Assembly: GCA_019059635.1 (NCBI GenBank)
Contig: JAGVRJ010000002.1
Span: 2,914,001 to 2,978,000 of the forward strand
DNA length: 64,000 bases
Reading direction: 5' to 3'
Source: Proales similis
Taxonomy: Eukaryota > Rotifera > Eurotatoria > Ploima > Proalidae
The position numbers and the translations under genes were made by a program. Positions within the stretch are counted from its first letter, which is position 1. Each line of letters opens with the position of its first letter. The notes beneath the pieces were generated by a model. That model saw only the letters and a list, made by a program, of their open reading frames with translations, did not search any database and was not told where the DNA came from. Positions 3,717 through 33,182 of the stretch are shown here, in pieces.

Positions 3717-6700
3717 ATGACGAAGATGTTCACCCTTTGGTATCAGTTCAATTCATGGCCGCTCGATCAAGTAAAGCGCTTTTTTTTTGTTTTATCTCAA
3801 AATCAATTTCAGTTGGAGAATGACTCATGTGCCGCTGGCAGGATGCGATCGACCATTACCTTTCAAACAGCAGCGACAAACTCAAGCAAGGTCTATCTGT
3901 TCACTACAAGCCGCGCAGCTCTTTTCCAGATTCGGTCAAATCTCAGCTGAGCAGCAGTCTAAAATCAAATGAAATTCAACTTGTCGACCGCTTCTCTTCT
4001 CACCTGGTACCCAATTTTTGGCCGCTCTTTGTCCATTTTGAATCTGCTCACATTCGAATATTTAGGACCTGGACCCAAAAATATGCGCCGATTGTTATTC
4101 AGAGTATCTCAAATCCGACATGAATCAGTTGAAAATAGCCGATGGCCTCGTTCAGGTGAGATTCCGTTTGTCTGGTCACTCGCAGATTGTCTGATAAAAA
4201 AAAAACCCAAAAAACTCAGAAACTGAGCGTAAATGAGCTCTTCAACGCCCACTTCTACCAGGTAAGGATGAAGCCTCTGTTTTGTGTGATCTTAACTGGA
4301 ATATGAGCATTCGATTAGTTCGTCGACTTTTATTTCCGCGAGAGGAACTCATTTTTAAAGAATTTAAAGCTTTTGTTGATTGTCTCACAAAGCGACGGAT
4401 CGACGGGCGACACCGAAACGGCAAGCGAGCCACTCTGACTTTCGATTCAATTGGTCACTTAATTGTCTTGCAGGCAGCCTATCATCAAATAGTCGGCGAT
4501 TGCTTTAGCCCTAAGGACTTTTCATCAATCTACGATGCGGTACGTGCGCCTCGTGATTCGCATCAAACATTCAGTTGGTTGATTCGTTTCGCTGATTTCG
4601 TTCGTTTGGCCAGGTGTTCAACGACTACAAGAGAGCGTGCAAACAGATTAAGCTCTTTCTGACCCGACAAAATGCCGACATTCCAAACGTAATCGAAAGC
4701 ATCAAACTAAGAATCGAGTTGACGAGTTGTATTTCATTGAGTTTAGTTCGAAGAGTTCGCCGAGAGACGCATTTACCAAAACGTGTGGGAAGTAGAGAAC
4801 ATTTTAGAGCTGCTCTTGCTCTTGTCAAAATCACAGCCAGCCGACTACAGGCTGTTCGCCGAGACAATAAGAGAATTTGCGGTTTGTGATTGCCAAGATC
4901 AAGTTCTGCTTCGATTGATTTAGAATTTGAATTCAACAGTCAAACCAGCTGATGCGCAATCTAAACTCGGTTTGCCAGCTCAAGCCGGACGAGTATAGAC
5001 TCTCGTCTAAACGCATCTCGTGGCTGCAGCAGCTCGTTCTCATCAATCTATCACAAGCGAACAATCTGGGCCACAGCTCCAACAAGATTGGTCAAGAATT
5101 CAAGAAGAAATTGCTCAGCAGCGAAAGCAAACAAGTAAAGGCACTAGCTGCTGTCTATAGCTTATTAGCACTCATGCATTTCGAAACAAGCTGGCCAACG
5201 ACTGGATCAATTCAGTGGGCAGCAACAAAGTCGCATCGCCGTTCATACTCGCCTGGTCGTTGATTTTGTTCGCTCTTTCCAGCGATCCAACGTGCGATCA
5301 ATGTAAGTGCCCTATTTGCGACCAGCCGAACAAGTGCGGCCTCTGACCTCTTTTCTTATTCATGTCCAGTCATGAGCCAGGAGACGAAAAATTTGATGAA
5401 ACGAATGTTTTTGTCCGCACTCAAGGAAGAGGCGTTCGAGTGCATGCTCGGCCTGTTTACGGCCGACCTCTTCCCGGGCAGCATTGATCCGATAAAAGGC
5501 GCCCAGGACGCGTTCACAAGTGTTGAAAAGAGTCACATTCGATGCAGCGTGCAGCAGATAGTCTACTCGTTTCTGAACGCGCTGCTGAACTCGTTTGACG
5601 AGAGCAGCGTCAAGAACCATCTGAGCTCCATCTACGAGCTCTGCTTCAATTGCCTCGATCGCAACAAAGCCCTGTGCCAGAGCTTCTGGAAGCTGTGCAC
5701 CCAGCCCGACAGAGACAATATAACCATATTGCTGATGCACGCGATCGAAACATTTCCGGCCTGCTTCCGCATTTCTTTGAATTTCTTCTCCATCCTGGCC
5801 CGAGCAGACACTCAGATCACTCGCGAGATTGTCGACTATTTGAGCCGCACTAGCTCCTACTGCGAATATCTCGACGATGTGAAGCAGGAGTTTCACTCTG
5901 ACAACGACACGGTTCGATTGATCAAGAAGCGAAACTTGTTCGGTAAGTGCGAAAAAGCGATTAGTGCTGCCAATGCGGTCAATTCCAATCTCTACTTCAG
6001 ATGGGCTCACTCTGCCCGCAGGCCAAGTGGGCGCCGTACTTACGCCCGAGAACGCCTACAAAACCCTGCTGGAGAGGACGGCCGTCTCTTGGACTCACCA
6101 GTTCAATCTATTTCGTCTCGTGAATATTTATTTCAAGCAAATTGTGCTTTTGAATCAAGGTAAGGCACGATCGAGTCAAGCTGCGGCCAACATCGACTAA
6201 TCGACGAACTGGTGAACCAGATCAGCTCACTTACGTCTCACACTTAACAGCCATAGTCAGACTCTACGCTGCACTGTTTGAGCACATATTTGAACTCAGC
6301 GACCCGGCAATTGAGCAGAACATTCTGCCGCTGATGAACGAGTTCATAGAAACGTCTTTTCGTCTCTTCGGCAACTTGATCAGAATGGAAAACGCCGACA
6401 GCTATGAAGTGATCGAGTGCATGCTCGAGATGTTCACCCAGCTGGAGCCGTACGTGGCCGACAAAGTCAGTTATTTGCCTTTTCAAATATTCCGCCTCAA
6501 TCGGTTCATTCACTGTGACGATCTAACAGATTGTCAATCTATTCGAGCAGTGCGAGATAATCGGGCAGCTGCCGGCCAAATTCAGCCACTACAATTTGAC
6601 CAAGCTGTTCAGGTAGGAGAGCGCAAACATGCCGCGTGTTCTTATCTCGAATTGTGATCCACACGACTCTTGGCAGCGAACGCTACGCTCTGCTCAATTC

Positions 6701-9700
6701 GATGCCCAAAATCATGTTCCTGCTAAGATCTAATCGACCGCGTCTGATGTTCAACTACCTGAGGCTCATTTCGCGACTTGTGAAAGTAAGCAATCTCCGT
6801 TTGCAGGCTAACCACTGCCGTTTGAGATGGCTTCATGTTTGGCAAAAGATGAATGAGCGATCGTTCACCGGCTGGACCTGCTGCTTTCTCACCGTCGTTT
6901 TTCCAAAAGTGCACAAATGGAAGTCGGCCAGCTTGTCCTACAACATAAGCATGTCGCATCTCTGCCTCGGCCTTTTGCACTCAATTCTCAACGCCCAGCA
7001 GACCGGCGCCGATCAGCAATGGTCAAACAAGGCCGACAGTTTAGAATCAATTCAGCTTAGTCAACTTCAAAGGTGAACCGTCAAGCAAATTGCCGAGTCC
7101 GTTCGTTCTTAAAGTTCATCTGCATCGTTTTAGTTCTGTGGCCGTCTGCGAAGCGATCCTGCTGAACACCGAATGTGCCGAAGCGCTGCTTGGCCTCATC
7201 AACGTCTCGTTCGAATGCTTCATGGACACTTATCAGATCGGCTACATGAAGCAGACAAGTCAGATATTGAACAAGGCCATCTCGCTGCTCAATAGACTGA
7301 CAATGGTGCGCAGTCAGACAGACTCATTGATTTTCGACGAGAGTCGACTGAAGCGCGTCTCAAACTCGCTTCTCTATTCCTATTTGGTGAACTCGATCAA
7401 AATGCAAAGCGACGACGAAATGATGCTCTGCACCAGCGAGTACGCCCAGCACACAGAAGAGGAGAAGAACGTGGATAAGCTTCTCATTCATTTAGATCTG
7501 TTGTTGTCCAGATCGCACACGAGCTTCAAAGACAACGGCAAGCTGGCCTCCAACTTCCTCGATCGAGTAGAAACCAAAATCTCCAGCATCAACTGGTTCA
7601 GACTATTGCTTCGCTTTCTTTTCACTCACAAATCCAGCCGAACCGACACAAGCCTTCTGTTCTCGACCTTTGACAGCATCGCGCGGCTCACTCCTCGTCT
7701 GTTTGGCTCATTGATTGGCGACGCCAATGTCAAAAGATTTCAGCGTCTTTTAATCGAACAGCTCAATGATCAGGACCATTGGCAAAAGCTACAGTCAATC
7801 TGTGAACTCGTCTGCACACTGATCGAGTTCCAGCCAGCGTTCTTTCAGTCGCTGGCGCCCATTGACACTCAGGAAGAGAAAGCAGACGAGAGAAACGTGC
7901 TGAAAATCTTGTTCAAGCAGCTCGAATATCTGAGCGGCAAGGCGCCAGAAAAGTGCGGCCTCATCTATCACCGAAGCGTCTGGTCAATACTGAGCGTGTT
8001 TGCGGCCATTTGGTCCAACAGAAAGATCAGCTACATGACGTACTGTCGAGAGATGGCCTCGTTCTGGCCCATATTGATCAAGCAGCTTCAAATTGTCAAA
8101 CGCGATCCGAACGAGCAGAGGCCCAATTTCAAGCTCATGTCCGTGCCGGAAAAATACGCCGAGTTCTTGGACGTCGACGATCTATCCAGCGAAGATCAGT
8201 GGCCCGATTTCGACGACGTTATTCCGTTCGAGTTGATGAGAAGTGCCTCGTTTGCCTTCAAGATTCTTACTCTCGAGCTGTTTGAGCTGTTCGCCTTCAG
8301 ACTCAAAATTGAGCAAACTTCGCCGGTGCTGCTCGATTTCTTGAGCAAACATCTCTTCGAACAAAGACTGGTGGAGAAGTGGCTCGACTATTTCAATTTT
8401 GAGCTGGAAAACGAGCTCTTGATAAAGCAAGAGCTGTTGAAATTCGAGTTTAAAGAAGAGGAAGCGAACGCAGATCAGCTGCTGGACGTCGAATGTCTCA
8501 CCCGATCCAAGCGACTTCTCGATCCGCTCACTGCCCTCTTTCTGATGCTGAACAAAATCGGGCGATCCGGCATTGAGAAGAAAGTCGACGAACCTGGCCA
8601 AGAGTCGATGGTTAAACAGTACGAGCTGCTGGCCAAAGTCAATCCGGCCCGCTTGGACCTTAACCTGTGCATTGAGCTCATATTGAACTCGATGTCTGCT
8701 CTGATCGATTATTTCGTGTTTGTGAACGATCTGGCGCAAGAGCACGTTCGATCCAAATGCGGCCAAATCGATCAATTAAAAGTGCAAGCAGCGATCAAAT
8801 CCAACGAGTCCATTCGCCAATTCAATTCACTTTCGAACACACTTCGAAGTCTTATAAACTCGATCGGAGAGAGGTGAGAACAAGTGACCAAGCGAGCCAA
8901 ACCAGTCATTTGTTCTAATCAAATTTTAAGGCAGGAGTCGGTCAAGTGCGGCAAAATCCTCGCCGGGCTCGTTCGCATTCTCGATCGGCTACTTGTCGAG
9001 GACTTTAACTATCACCCGCCAGTAGTCAGCTCGCTGCAGTGGTGCCTCCTTCACATCATCATGCGCTCGGAGCAGAGTTTAGACGAAAGCGTCCAAACAC
9101 TTCGAGCCGGTAAGCTTCGATCTCCTGGCTGTCTTGTTCAACGCGCCAATCAATTTGTGATCAGATGCCAATTTAACACGAAAGCTGTTGGCCATCTTGT
9201 CCAAGGTGTTCATCAGAACATGCAACAGCATGGAGCTCGCTTCCTCTAAGCCTGCGTTCGACGAGTACGTGCAGGTAAGATAGGTTTCAGTTTATCTGCG
9301 TGCAAATCTGCCACTTCAACTTTCAACCAAAGCTGTTCAACTTGAACGCCGACCTCATTACTTTCGTGCTGAGAAACATCGACAGCGACTACTGGCTCAA
9401 AGTGTTCGCCGAGTGCTCTTTGCTCAAATGCTTGATAATCATATTTCAGCAAAATATCAAAGTGAGCCATTTAAATGACCTCGCGCAGACTTTTGACTGA
9501 GCTTCACTCGTCCTAGAACGGTCCTGACCTCGATCTGATCAACTCGATCTTGAAGATGATTCACACGTTTGCCGACAAAAAGATGGACTACGTCGTCGAA
9601 TCTGATTTCAATTCAAACACGTGCCTTCATGTGGGACCTCTCTTCAGACTGGCAGTTATGAATCAGGCAACAAAAATAATTCCTCATTTGCTTGTTTGGC

Positions 9701-28950: not shown

Positions 28951-30728
28951 ATGCTTTCATTTAATCGGCTGACTGCGCTGGCATTTGCCTGTTTCTGTCA
29001 GCTCTTCCTCTATTCAGGTTTGACTCGGTCCAGTGCGTCTCGCATTCCAATCTCAAGAGGAGAATTTGCTTTTAGCTGCTCAAGAATGCTTGAACGGAGG
29101 AGTGCTGGTCTCTAGACCTGCTGCGTCAGTCAACCAAGTTTGCATTTGCCACAAAGACTATATCGGACCAAGATGTGAGCAACGAGTAAACTTTCTAACT
29201 CCGATCGAGCGTCAAAAATTCGGCTGTGAGCTCAGACCGTGTTATATCGGCTCTACGTGTGAGGACCGAGGTGACTCTTTTGTGTGCCATTGTTCAGCGG
29301 TAGGCTCGCAAGCATTCGCTGACTTGTCAACGTGCAGTAATGGTCGTTGTTTCTAGAACACGTTTGGCGAATACTGCGAACAGTCTTCATTGATCAACAA
29401 CAATCCGTGCATTAGCAAACCTTGCTACAACTACGGCACATGCATCCAGCAAGACCAGAATTCGTACACTTGTGCGTGCAACGGCTCGTACGGCGGCCTC
29501 GGCTGCAAGCAGAACCTGGTCGGCGCCTGCGCTTCCAATCCTTGTCTTCGTGACGGCATTTGCGTTCCTGTTGGCCTCACTGGTAATCAACTGCCTCCTT
29601 CATAATCTTGACGTTGATTGCAATTCTCTCTGGCGAGTCAGATTACAGGTGCCAATGTCCCGATTGGACAATCGGAAAGAACTGCGAAGTCGTTTTCAAT
29701 CCGTGTAGCCGAGTGAGCTGCATGAACAACGGAAATTGTTTGAAAAAGCGAACATTGGCCTACGAGTGCAATTGTACAGCCGATTTCACAGGACTGCTCT
29801 GCGACCAGCCTCGAGTTCAGTCGTGTCTGACCATCCCATGCGCTTACGGCAGCTGTCAGCTCAACTCAAGAGGACAGTACCAATGCTTTTGCGCCACGCA
29901 GGGCTATGAAGGAACATACTGCGAAGTTGAAAAATGCAATCCTCGCTGCGTGAACGGCTATTGCAATCGAGACGAGGCCGGCAATTACTATTGCGTTTGC
30001 GCATCTGGTTACACAGGCCCTAACTGCGGCAGCTTAGGTAATTTGCCATCTCACTTATGCCCAGACGAATGTAAATTTCATCTAATTGGCTTTGAAAAGT
30101 GTGCTTCTCGGCAGCCTCGACTGTAGAGACGGCCAATCGAGGCACAATCAGCATCGGCGAGCTCAGGAGAGGCGATTTGGTGCGAACCTACGACGAACAA
30201 AAAGGCGAATGGATTTACAGCCGCTTTGTGAATTTCATGCACAAGGACGATGAGGTGGTCGGCCGCTATCTGTCTATAAAGACCGAAGACCAGCGCCAAT
30301 TGCACATATCTGAGAAGCACTATATTGTTCGTGTCGAATCGCTGGACGGGAATAAGCTGCTGACGGAAAAAGTGTTTGCCAAAGAGCTCAAGCTGAACGA
30401 TTTGCTGATTGTCGACGACGAGAACAAGCCCGTGCAGAAGATAGTCGAAATTAAAGTGACTTATGAGCGAGGGGCCTACGCGCCGCTCACAGAGCAGGGC
30501 ACCATTTCGGTCAATTCGATATTGGCTTCTTGCTTTGCCAACACATTCACAAACGATTTGGGCTATTATGTCATGCAGCCGTACGTGATCTGGTCGCGGC
30601 TCTCTCACGCACTGTTCAAATCTTCCCAAGAGGAAGCTGATTACATAAACGGTATTCATTGGTACGCCGAGCTCTTCCGCCGCCTTCTTCCGTTCATACC
30701 GTTCTCAAGCCACATTGCTACATTCTAA
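28951..30728 (+). CDS. Secreted EGF-repeat protein fused to a Hedgehog-type Hog (Hint) autoprocessing domain
   Basis: Five exons (28951-29017, 29058-29299, 29357-29582, 29642-30037, 30100-30728) read as one frame of about 519 residues. Residues 1-22 form a signal peptide. Seven EGF-like modules follow, the first degenerate, each with the C.C...G.C pattern (for example NPCISKPCYNYGTC and CVCASGYTGPNC). The Hog domain starts at residue 312 with CFSAASTVET and runs to the end. It has G.LRRGDLVRT, an H384 in ISEKHYIV, YAPLTEQGTISVNSILASCFA with Cys455, and the sterol-recognition end with GIHWYAEL. In Hedgehog proteins this domain cuts itself off and attaches cholesterol. There is no Hedge signalling domain. 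The position normally Asp in FMD/FLD is His358, and the usual Thr of T..H is Ser381. The last intron joins EGF7 to the catalytic Cys, and reading through it gives a stop, so fusion requires this splice. AATAAA lies near 30864. Confidence 0.85.
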
Positions 30729-31306
30729 AGTAAGCTCATTGCATTCAGCCATTCAAATTTTTTTTTTTACAATCTCATTCACTCGCATCTGCCATTTGAT
30801 GTTTAAACCTTGTGGTTTGATGATGTTGTTGCTATATTACGATTAATCGTTGAGAACAATCAAAATAAAAAATTTCAGCTAGCAACAGTTTACCAGGCCT
30901 GTTCTAACTTGGACGTGTGCAGCAAAAGCCCGTCAGTCTTGGCCAAATTCGCGTTTATTTATTTCCTCACTGCACTTAAGAGTAAAATGAATGCGCAAGT
31001 AAATAGAACGCCTGCTTTAAATGAGTAGAACAAAACAAACGGTAAAGAGAAGAAGAACACTCTCAAACAAGAGTGAAAGAGAGAGAAAAGAGACGAAGAA
31101 AGTGAGATACGGGACAGAGAAAGAGGCCAAACTAAAATTTAAAAGACGACCGGAAAAAACGTATTTAAATAGAAATAATATTACAACAAGAGAACAGATT
31201 GAACAAGAGGCCAATGGTAAATCAAAACGGTTAGAAATTCGTGGCTCGATTGCTTTTCGATGGATCTCTGCTTGAACATATTTACAAACGAGTGAAGTCT
31301 CTTTCT
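30729..31306. other. Convergent spacer between EGF-Hog and EGR genes
   Basis: About 0.58 kb holding the two facing 3' UTRs. AATAAA near 30864 serves the EGF-Hog gene. A purine-rich run (31020-31160) is read as low-complexity Arg/Lys/Glu ORFs and is probably the EGR 3' UTR. No gene was seen. Confidence 0.5.
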
Positions 31307-33182
31307 CTATTGATTCTGCCCATTCGGCTGGCTCAGATCGCGGTATGGCGCAAAATTCTGCGGCAGAAGATTTTTAAACGATGGATGAATGCCCATTGGC
31401 CCGAAAGGCATCTCATAGGCCATGTTTGCTGGCACTTGGTTGACACTATCAATTCGTCTCATGTTGGCTAGTTGACTGGATATGTGATAGTTGTGATTGG
31501 CGATATCGACCGACATGGCATCGACCGCCGCCGGCTCGTTCATCTGGTTGAATGCGTACGGATGATTCATCAATAGCTGATTGCCCAGACTGCCGAGATT
31601 GGCACTAGGACGAAGGTTGTAGCCAAGATTTTTGTAAATGTCCAGATTGAGTCCGTTGTGTGTGTTGTGACCAATCTGCTTGGCGAACGGCGAGTTCAAG
31701 GCGCCAAACTGAAACTGACCGACCTGAAAGGCGGCCTCATGCCCGTTTTGTTCGCTCTGCTCCTCTTCTTCTTTCAGTTTTTCTACTGCTCGCTTCTTGT
31801 TCTGCTTTCGCACTTCGCCGCTAGATGTTCTTTTTAAAGATAATAGGCTCTTGGCTTCGTCGTTTGTGCTGTTGGCCGAACCATTTACTTGACTCGACGA
31901 CTTTTGGTTTTTTGACTTTGAATGGACCTTTGCGTGCCGCTTTCGCTCATCTGAACGAGCGAATCGCCGATGGCATATTTCGCAGGAAAAAGGCTTCTCA
32001 CCAGTGTGCGTTCGAATGTGCGTGGTCAAATGATCGGAGCGGGAGAATGCTCGCGAACAAACGTTACACTTGAACGGCTTGTCGCCGGTGTGAATTCTCA
32101 AGTGCCTGGTCAGCTCGTCAGAACGTGAGAAACGCCGCGGACATCCTGGCACAGTGCAAGCGTGCGGCCTCTCGTTCAGCGGTGTCTTGCTCGGTCGATT
32201 CACAAACTTGCGATTTTTCAAACCGGGCGTGGGTGCTTGCTCACTGTTCGACTGGTCATCGCCGTCAGCGCTCATATTCTGCATTGAGTCTATGGAATGT
32301 ACAAGGCCATCACTCGAAGCATCATTCTCAGCGGTCTGTAGCTCGGCTGCCTGAGCCATGGACTCATGCGCTTCAGTCTTGACTATTCCAATATCACTCT
32401 CATCGTATCCATATATGTTGGGACCCATCTGCTCGATCGACGACTGCACGTCAACTTGACTATAATCACTGCCTTTGAAGTCACTGCTTGAATTGAGACT
32501 CCCTTCGGCTTTTGTTGTCTCGAAGCTTTCATTTTCAAACTCTTTGCAAATTTCAATGTTAAACAAAGGCTTGTTTGCTTCTGTGTTGGAGACTTCAGCA
32601 GCAAAGCCAACTATCGGGCCGCAGTTGGCCTCTGCAGCCGCTTTTATTGAAGCGTTCTGGTCTGATGACTCGTCGATCAGAGACGACTGCTGGGCAGCTT
32701 GGGTTTCATCAGCCAAAATATTCTCGTTTTCTTGACCAGACTCCACTTGAGTTTGATACGCGACCAGATCGACCTTGATCACCGGAGTACTGGGCACAGC
32801 AATTGCTTTTCCTTTACTCTCTTAACGAATTGAACATTAGCGTAGAGGAGCGTGGAGGAGAAGAGTTCCAAAAGATTCGAGGCTCACCAGAGTGAGGAGA
32901 AGACGGCTCGTCCACATCCGAGTTGGGAGAAGGTGAAAGTGGAAAGAAAGTAGTGGCCACAGTCACTGTTCGTGGCGTGTTCAAATTGCCGTTCGGAGTG
33001 GTAGGCTCTTGCGAGGCGATGATCTTCAACTCATTCGGATCGAATTTGAAGCGACTACTCGCTAGCTTTGAGCGACTTGAGTTCTTATTTTCGTCGCTTG
33101 GCAGCTTGACTGCAGGCACAGCTCGGCTTTTGATAGCGGCTTGCTGAGAAGACTGTTGGGCTTGTTTGGCGTTTATTGACAT
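31307..33182 (-). CDS. EGR: EGR-family C2H2 zinc-finger transcription factor
   Basis: Two exons (33182-32888 and 32820-31307) encode about 602 residues. Three consecutive C2H2 fingers follow [16 protein letters not shown], itself a signature of EGR proteins. The recognition helices [24 protein letters not shown] and [12 protein letters not shown] are identical in key positions to EGR1-4, so a GC-rich EGR site (GCGKGGGCG) is predicted. The N-terminal half is acidic and Ser-rich, as expected for an activation domain; the C-terminal part is Asn/Pro-rich. In other animals EGRs are immediate-early genes driven by activity. I looked for an SRE-type CArG box in the 400 bp upstream and did not find a convincing one. 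The acceptor at 32821-32822 was chosen because it keeps phase 1. Confidence 0.9.

Follow-up and report, generated by a model that had tools for sequence, protein, structure and literature searches.

To our knowledge, Hedgehog is the only protein whose tagging with cholesterol by a Hog domain has entered the textbooks. In that reaction Asp46 acts as the general base for cholesterol, and the D46A change blocks cholesterolysis, according to a preprint that also describes the Hedgehog C-terminal part (HhC) as functional with unrelated N-terminal polypeptides (PMC13060885). For the Hint domain of Drosophila Hedgehog, a review reports that the D303H variant has a near-identical structure and a similar catalytic efficiency, with activity increased more than 200-fold on coprostanol and more than 300-fold on epicoprostanol (PMC9163320). 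Hog domains joined to unrelated N-terminal domains occur in the warthog, groundhog, quahog and other proteins of nematodes, animals without Hedgehog (PMC2362128), and Lophohog of Lottia, Acanthochitona and Capitella is a spiralian Hog protein without a Hedge domain (PMC9695228, PMC5103448). The main text of PMC2362128 mentions "EGF" twice, each time in connection with a protein that lacks Hog, and never mentions "trypsin". An EGF-Hog family was not known to a first-pass annotation of the DNA studied here, and we likewise found no earlier description of an EGF-Hog or a trypsin-Hog protein among the titles and abstracts listed in searches of an open-access library.

Gene structure of the EGF-Hog locus

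The window, the whole stretch of 64,000 nucleotides of Proales similis DNA that was analyzed, contains an EGF-Hog gene at 28951-30728 on the forward strand. Its five exons join in a single frame and encode a protein of 513 residues, as had been proposed for an EGF array followed by a Hog domain; all four introns are of the GT-AG type and are 58, 57, 59 and 62 bases long. Exon 1 (28951-29017, ending in phase 1) carries the start codon and a signal peptide that is apparent by eye, as first noted, but the N-terminal stretch stays below the 1.6 threshold of the hydropathy scan. Exon 2 (29076-29299, ending in phase 0) encodes a four-cysteine EGF-like module together with the greater part of the first complete one. 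Brachionus plicatilis protein P0001 matches from residue 63 onward; the part upstream of this residue has no counterpart in P0001 and is drawn from the Proales genome alone. Exon 3 (29357-29582) encodes further EGF modules, and it is at about its start that two environmental proteins, P0015 and P0016, begin to resemble the window protein (NTFGEYC/NTYGEFC). The remaining EGF modules are encoded by exon 4 (29642-30037), which ends in phase 1 within codon 305. The phase 1 intron of 62 bases that follows lies at 30038-30099, exactly where it had been placed. Exon 5 (30100-30728, stop codon included) encodes the Hog domain, composed of Hint and a sterol-recognition-like tail. The codon of the Hog cysteine, previously numbered 312 and residue 306 in the present model, is at 30102-30104. 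An AATAAA polyadenylation-type signal, a sequence match only, is found on the same strand at 30864-30869, 136 bases 3' of the stop codon. The convergent neighbor on the reverse strand (31307-33182) encodes C2H2 zinc fingers that by eye resemble the EGR family.

Two other ways of reading the locus were rejected. A separate start within the Hog exon is one of them: no Met precedes Cys306 in the open frame of Hog, so an internal start would lose the catalytic cysteine. The other is a hidden Hedge exon between the last EGF module (EGF7) and the Hog cysteine. Since the last EGF cysteine is separated from Cys306 by four residues and an intron of 62 bases, compared with about 160 residues for Hedge, no such exon has been missed.

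Domain composition of the window protein

The Hint domain was mapped by Pfam to residues 303-500 (E-value 9.6e-41; 140.1 bits against a curated cut-off of 29.7). The Cys-Phe pair at its start occupies residues 306-307, in agreement with the complete Hog domain noted at the outset. A phmmer comparison of the Hog part with Drosophila Hedgehog (chain of 6td6) covered residues 1-198 of 208 (E-value 4.6e-16), including the sterol/adduct recognition region with its NGIHWYA tail. Both catalytic motifs can be recognized, namely SEKH (T/S-x-x-H, with Ser in place of Thr) and ASCFA (the Cys143 motif SC[YF]A). By its Hint domain, motifs and tail, the protein fits the Hog (Hint plus SRR/ARR) class, with predicted self-cleavage and a predicted lipid adduct. 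The reported absence of a Hedge domain also stands, as Pfam found no HH_signal in the protein and the gene has no room for a Hedge exon.

In the N-terminal part, Pfam detected EGF in six stretches (E-value 5.6e-13). Cysteine grouping gives one four-cysteine module at residues 27-56 (Cys 27, 45, 47 and 56) and six six-cysteine EGF modules at 73-104, 115-147, 155-187, 194-226, 234-266 and 271-301. Thus, six of the seven modules originally counted are complete, beginning with the cysteine at residue 73, but the first one has only four cysteines. Past residue 40 there is no hydropathy peak of transmembrane size (the highest 19-residue mean is 1.03), and the Hog step is therefore the only visible anchor. 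Pfam found no DSL domain either, so that neither the DSL domain nor the transmembrane segment of Notch ligands is seen. EGF receptor ligands have a single EGF module near a membrane anchor. The window protein has six complete modules in tandem and no transmembrane-size peak; because of this tandem array we rejected an EGF receptor ligand as an established fact. The earlier wording "EGF ligand" or "EGF signal" is too specific for tandem modules with Notch-type sugar motifs, whose target need not be an EGF receptor.

The same fusion in other proteins

P0001 of B. plicatilis, the closest homologue with a species name, has the same EGF-Hog fusion, and three environmental proteins (P0015, P0016 and P0021) combine EGF repeats and Hint in a single chain. 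With residues 24-303 as the query, 14 of 202 candidate proteins matched at E-values of 1e-15 or lower. Hint is present in four of them, which are also the four of highest identity: P0001 (78%), P0021 (66%, with 38% of the query covered), P0015 (58%) and P0016 (52%). The other ten are 30-36% identical and have no Hint. When the Hog part alone was used, P0001 was the sole match among 1516 candidates, and a six-row Hog profile matched 14 of 4990. In one of the profile matches, P0006, the end of an EGF-like module runs directly into Hog as judged by eye; Pfam assigns Hint only. No bdelloid protein was found by name in the protein searches, which depend on shared five-residue words and similar length and are uninformative on absence.

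Predictions from sources of this kind usually ignore introns; if that holds for P0015, P0016 and P0021, EGF and Hog would share a single open frame in them. At the level of sequence, the occurrence of the same fusion in P0001 and the three environmental proteins confirms that it is neither a chance nor a gene-model artefact. An assembly chimera was rejected on the strength of these four further EGF plus Hint proteins.

Over the stretch shared by Proales and Brachionus, identity amounts to 79% in the EGF part (75% when shared cysteines are set aside), compared with 46% in Hog. This is what would be expected of a product, the EGF array, and the tool that processes it, Hog. With shared cysteines counted, EGF identity exceeds Hog identity in all ten pairwise comparisons among the five EGF-Hog proteins, whose Hog parts are 36-46% identical to that of the window. 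Without shared cysteines, EGF stays ahead by 12-29 points in four pairs and by 3-7 points in five, and falls behind in P0001/P0021 (52% versus 56%); this unevenness counts against the explanation that we prefer below.

Five Hog loci in the P. similis genome

The Pfam Hint search of the genome (32,716,893 bases in 15 contigs, with the window lying in contig C2) revealed five loci (six exon matches), and the same five were recovered with Drosophila Hog as the query. They comprise two EGF-Hog, two Cys-rich-Hog and one trypsin-Hog gene; the window gene is not a one-off. The other four, all on the reverse strand of their regions, were modeled by hand and then analyzed with Pfam. EGFHogB (L008, C7:866300-876200, at 4386-6506; 649 residues) has Ser/Thr-rich linkers between its EGF modules; Hint matches with an E-value of 7.9e-36, and EGF_2 scores above its cut-off, EGF and EGF_TEN below theirs. 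TrypHog (L009, C7:1415700-1425600, at 4623-6545; 538 residues in a six-exon model) combines Trypsin (E-value 4e-60) with Hint (E-value 5.4e-36). The catalytic motifs TAAHC, DIA and GDSGGP, recognized by eye, make it a complete trypsin-like protease, possibly one that is secreted and sterol-tethered. CysHogA (L007, C15, at 5547-6555; 316 residues) and CysHogB (L010, C1, at 5770-6903; 319 residues) have Cys-rich N-terminal domains that look alike by eye and belong to no Pfam family. Two proteins, P0013 and P0014, match CysHogA with 54% and 53% identity over 47% of its length and are 60% identical to each other. None of the five Hog models has a Hedge match in Pfam.

In all five models, which are not independent cases, the nearest intron upstream of the Hog cysteine is in phase 1; human SHH also has a phase 1 intron, about ten codons before its Hog cysteine. 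Exon shuffling could therefore have carried the Hog exon from an ancestral hedgehog into other genes. A phase 0 intron just past the CHC of an EGF module is common to EGFHogB and the window gene, and this shared position suggests that they are old duplicates. No weight attaches to the phase order 1, 0, 1 as such, which TrypHog also shows. In the Hog tree, which is weak (8 of 13 inner branches open, long branches including that of CysHogB, bootstrap unsettled), TrypHog shares a fork with the Hogs of the window type (89/88), and CysHogB joins Drosophila Hedgehog (91/93).

Active-site residues

In the alignment of the five EGF-Hog proteins, Val305, Cys306, Phe307, His352, Ser375, His378, Cys449 and Trp492 of the window protein are invariant. 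The same is true of Cys1, the SxxH motif (Ser for Thr69 in every row), Cys143 and APLT..GT, and the tail pattern [GS]-[IM]-x-W-[YF]-[AC] is kept in all five. Three of the five Proales Hogs lack the HW pair of HWY. Position 46 (Drosophila D303), which is Asp in both Hedgehog rows, is His in the window Hog and in 18 of the 19 non-Hedgehog rows altogether; these rows are related rather than independent events, include P0012 (Hint fused to other domains) and leave aside three fragments that stop short of the position. The one exception is CysHogB, which alone among the Proales Hogs keeps Asp46 and which has Ser at position 143. In P0012, a protein of 530 residues with Hint, PF26146 and PF26178 that looks phospholipase-C-type by eye, positions -1, 46 and 143 are occupied by Gly, His and Thr, respectively.

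The residue preceding the cleavage cysteine is Val in all five EGF-Hog rows and Arg, Arg, Glu or Ser, never Gly, in the other four Proales Hogs. Intein work indicates that Val in place of Gly at -1 could slow thioester formation. We regard this substitution as the main chemical doubt about Hog activity. His46 is no argument against a sterol adduct, because D303H retains catalytic efficiency; it may even hint at broad sterol use, which would fit an alga-fed animal. The "cholesterol" tag proposed earlier is plausible as a sterol tag in view of the D303H data (PMC9163320), but with His for Asp46 and Val at -1 the sterol need not be cholesterol.

Hedgehog pathway context

The pathway survey was a six-frame family search of one assembly in which only the best candidates were scored. 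HH_signal had no match in the genome, nor in any control genome, which makes this result weak alone; the case for the absence of Hedgehog draws mainly on the five Hog loci, every one of which has another kind of N-terminus. Of six Patched-family matches, the one at C15:846449 (L015) is Dispatched (E-value 9.4e-97 to DISP1). The match at C7:263596 is closest to NPC1 (E-value 1.9e-43), followed by Patched-1 (E-value 3.4e-32), and was read as a putative Patched-related transporter; alternatively, it may be a very divergent Patched. By eye, two matches in C3 are NPC1-like, one in C8 is SCAP-like and the one in C6, at a weak 28 bits, looks unrelated. The sterol-sensing family matched at the first five of these six places. 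Thus, Patched was not found among the six matches, one of them being Patched-related. Similarly, the two Frizzled-family matches in the genome are both Frizzled-like by eye, and Smoothened is not among them. SUFU gave one match of 48.8 bits; this family was also matched in two bacterial control genomes. The genome further contains two LNR matches (in one frame), four DSL matches and two receptor L-domain matches close together.

Proposed mechanism and alternative explanations

We consider it probable that the product of the gene is a secreted EGF-array protein in which Hog serves as a C-terminal lipid-tagging cassette, the sterol-tagged array being released or held and acting locally. The architecture and conservation, which are firm, and the active-site residues were observed directly; from them we infer that Hog self-cleavage is very likely and that a sterol adduct on the EGF array is the likelier outcome. 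In the secretory pathway, Cys306 would attack the Val305-Cys306 bond to form a thioester, with His352, Ser375, His378 and Cys449 substituting for Hedgehog Asp46, Thr69, His72 and Cys143. The C-terminal tail would hold a sterol that attacks the thioester, so that the freed EGF array would carry a sterol ester at Val305; the Hog part would be discarded. Besides Val at -1, the presence of Ser for Thr69 and of His for Asp46 counts against this explanation. The lipidated array could then be kept on membranes or released by Dispatched, and would act locally, perhaps on Notch-type partners. The retained Dispatched fits a sterol-tagged secreted product, but it could serve another client. Of the original interpretation, the architecture, the absence of Hedge and the identity of Hog hold; the cholesterol and the EGF ligand or signal are its weaker parts.

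What the array acts on is a separate matter, and a Notch-pathway modulator, lipid-anchored and akin in kind to the soluble DSL/DLK type rather than a growth-factor-like ligand, is a possible though doubtful answer that is compatible with our preferred explanation. It would be in keeping with the tandem EGF modules, the LNR (Notch) and DSL matches in the genome, a C-x-S-x-P-C O-glucose consensus found in the same module in all four rows that cover it, and an O-fucose consensus in two window modules, motifs that we take to be Notch-type sugar sites. Nevertheless, the window protein has no DSL domain, P0016 has no O-fucose match in these modules, and such sites are also found outside the Notch pathway.

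The other alternatives concern Hog itself. An unlikely one is that Hog cleaves itself off with a non-sterol adduct (water, or another alcohol or lipid), so that it only cuts and releases the EGF array. His in place of Asp46, Val at -1 and a tail that varies among paralogues, down to the loss of the HW pair, could be taken in this way, and the tails of nematode Hogs are named adduct recognition regions, cholesterol addition being unclear (PMC2362128). Against it speak the wild-type-like catalytic efficiency of D303H in Drosophila Hint (PMC9163320), the tail pattern common to all five EGF-Hog proteins and the retention of Dispatched, the exporter of lipid-tagged Hedgehog. It is still more improbable that Hog is a decaying relic and that an uncleaved precursor is secreted or membrane-held, its EGF part acting alone. 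Such decay would agree with the faster evolution of Hog than of EGF between Proales and Brachionus and with no Hedgehog being found, but it would not keep the invariant catalytic motifs at 36-46% Hog identity, and four further Hog loci are retained in this 33-Mb genome. Finally, the link between EGF and Hog in the Proales genome depends on one predicted intron, and two separate genes, one for EGF repeats and one for Hog, might have been read as one. In view of the same fusion in Brachionus, the three environmental proteins with EGF repeats and Hint, and a Hog frame that offers no Met before Cys306, such an artefact is hardly credible.

The rotifer Hog set, with no Hedgehog found beside it, is more interesting than the window gene alone, and suggests that the Hog tail may have been re-used as a general lipid-tagging device. 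Taken as a whole, the following scenario is tentative, and we would stop short of even odds for it: Hedgehog and its receptors would have been lost, the Hog exon, lying behind a phase 1 intron, would have been attached as a free-standing cassette to EGF arrays, to a Cys-rich module and to a complete serine protease, and the sterol-tagged products would be exported by Dispatched, with a natural His base accepting dietary sterols. The products would include sterol-tagged adhesive or signaling EGF proteins and sterol-tethered proteases. If this is true, tagging and export machinery can outlive the Hedgehog pathway and gain new clients, as in this bilaterian, in which no Hedgehog, Patched or Smoothened was found but Dispatched is kept and Hog is joined to other cargoes at five loci. 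It also offers testable chemistry, namely whether the natural His46 acts like the engineered D303H of Drosophila Hint, and further types of cargo with which to study how extracellular proteins are affected by a C-terminal sterol.

Comparison with known systems

The window protein resembles Hedgehog (Hh/Shh) in having a secreted N-terminal part and a C-terminal Hog with Cys1, T/S-x-x-H, Cys143 and an HWY-type tail. It differs in lacking the Hedge domain, in having His for Asp46 and Val for Gly at -1, and in its predicted released part, the EGF array. The nematode Hog proteins, which likewise carry Hog on other domains, have Wart, Ground and others as their N-terminal domains. Lophohog, the spiralian parallel, has a unique N-terminal domain and is set apart here by its description only (PMC9695228, PMC5103448). 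The D303H Hint of Drosophila Hedgehog (PDB 6tyy) shares His at position 46 with the window Hog, but there it is an engineered change in Hedgehog. Extracellular EGF modules in a hedgehog-related protein are known from Nematostella Nv 200640 (Hedge-VWA-cadherin-EGF), which the hedgling proteins of sponges and cnidarians resemble. This protein has Hedge and no Hog, and is thus the mirror image of EGF-Hog (PMC2362128).
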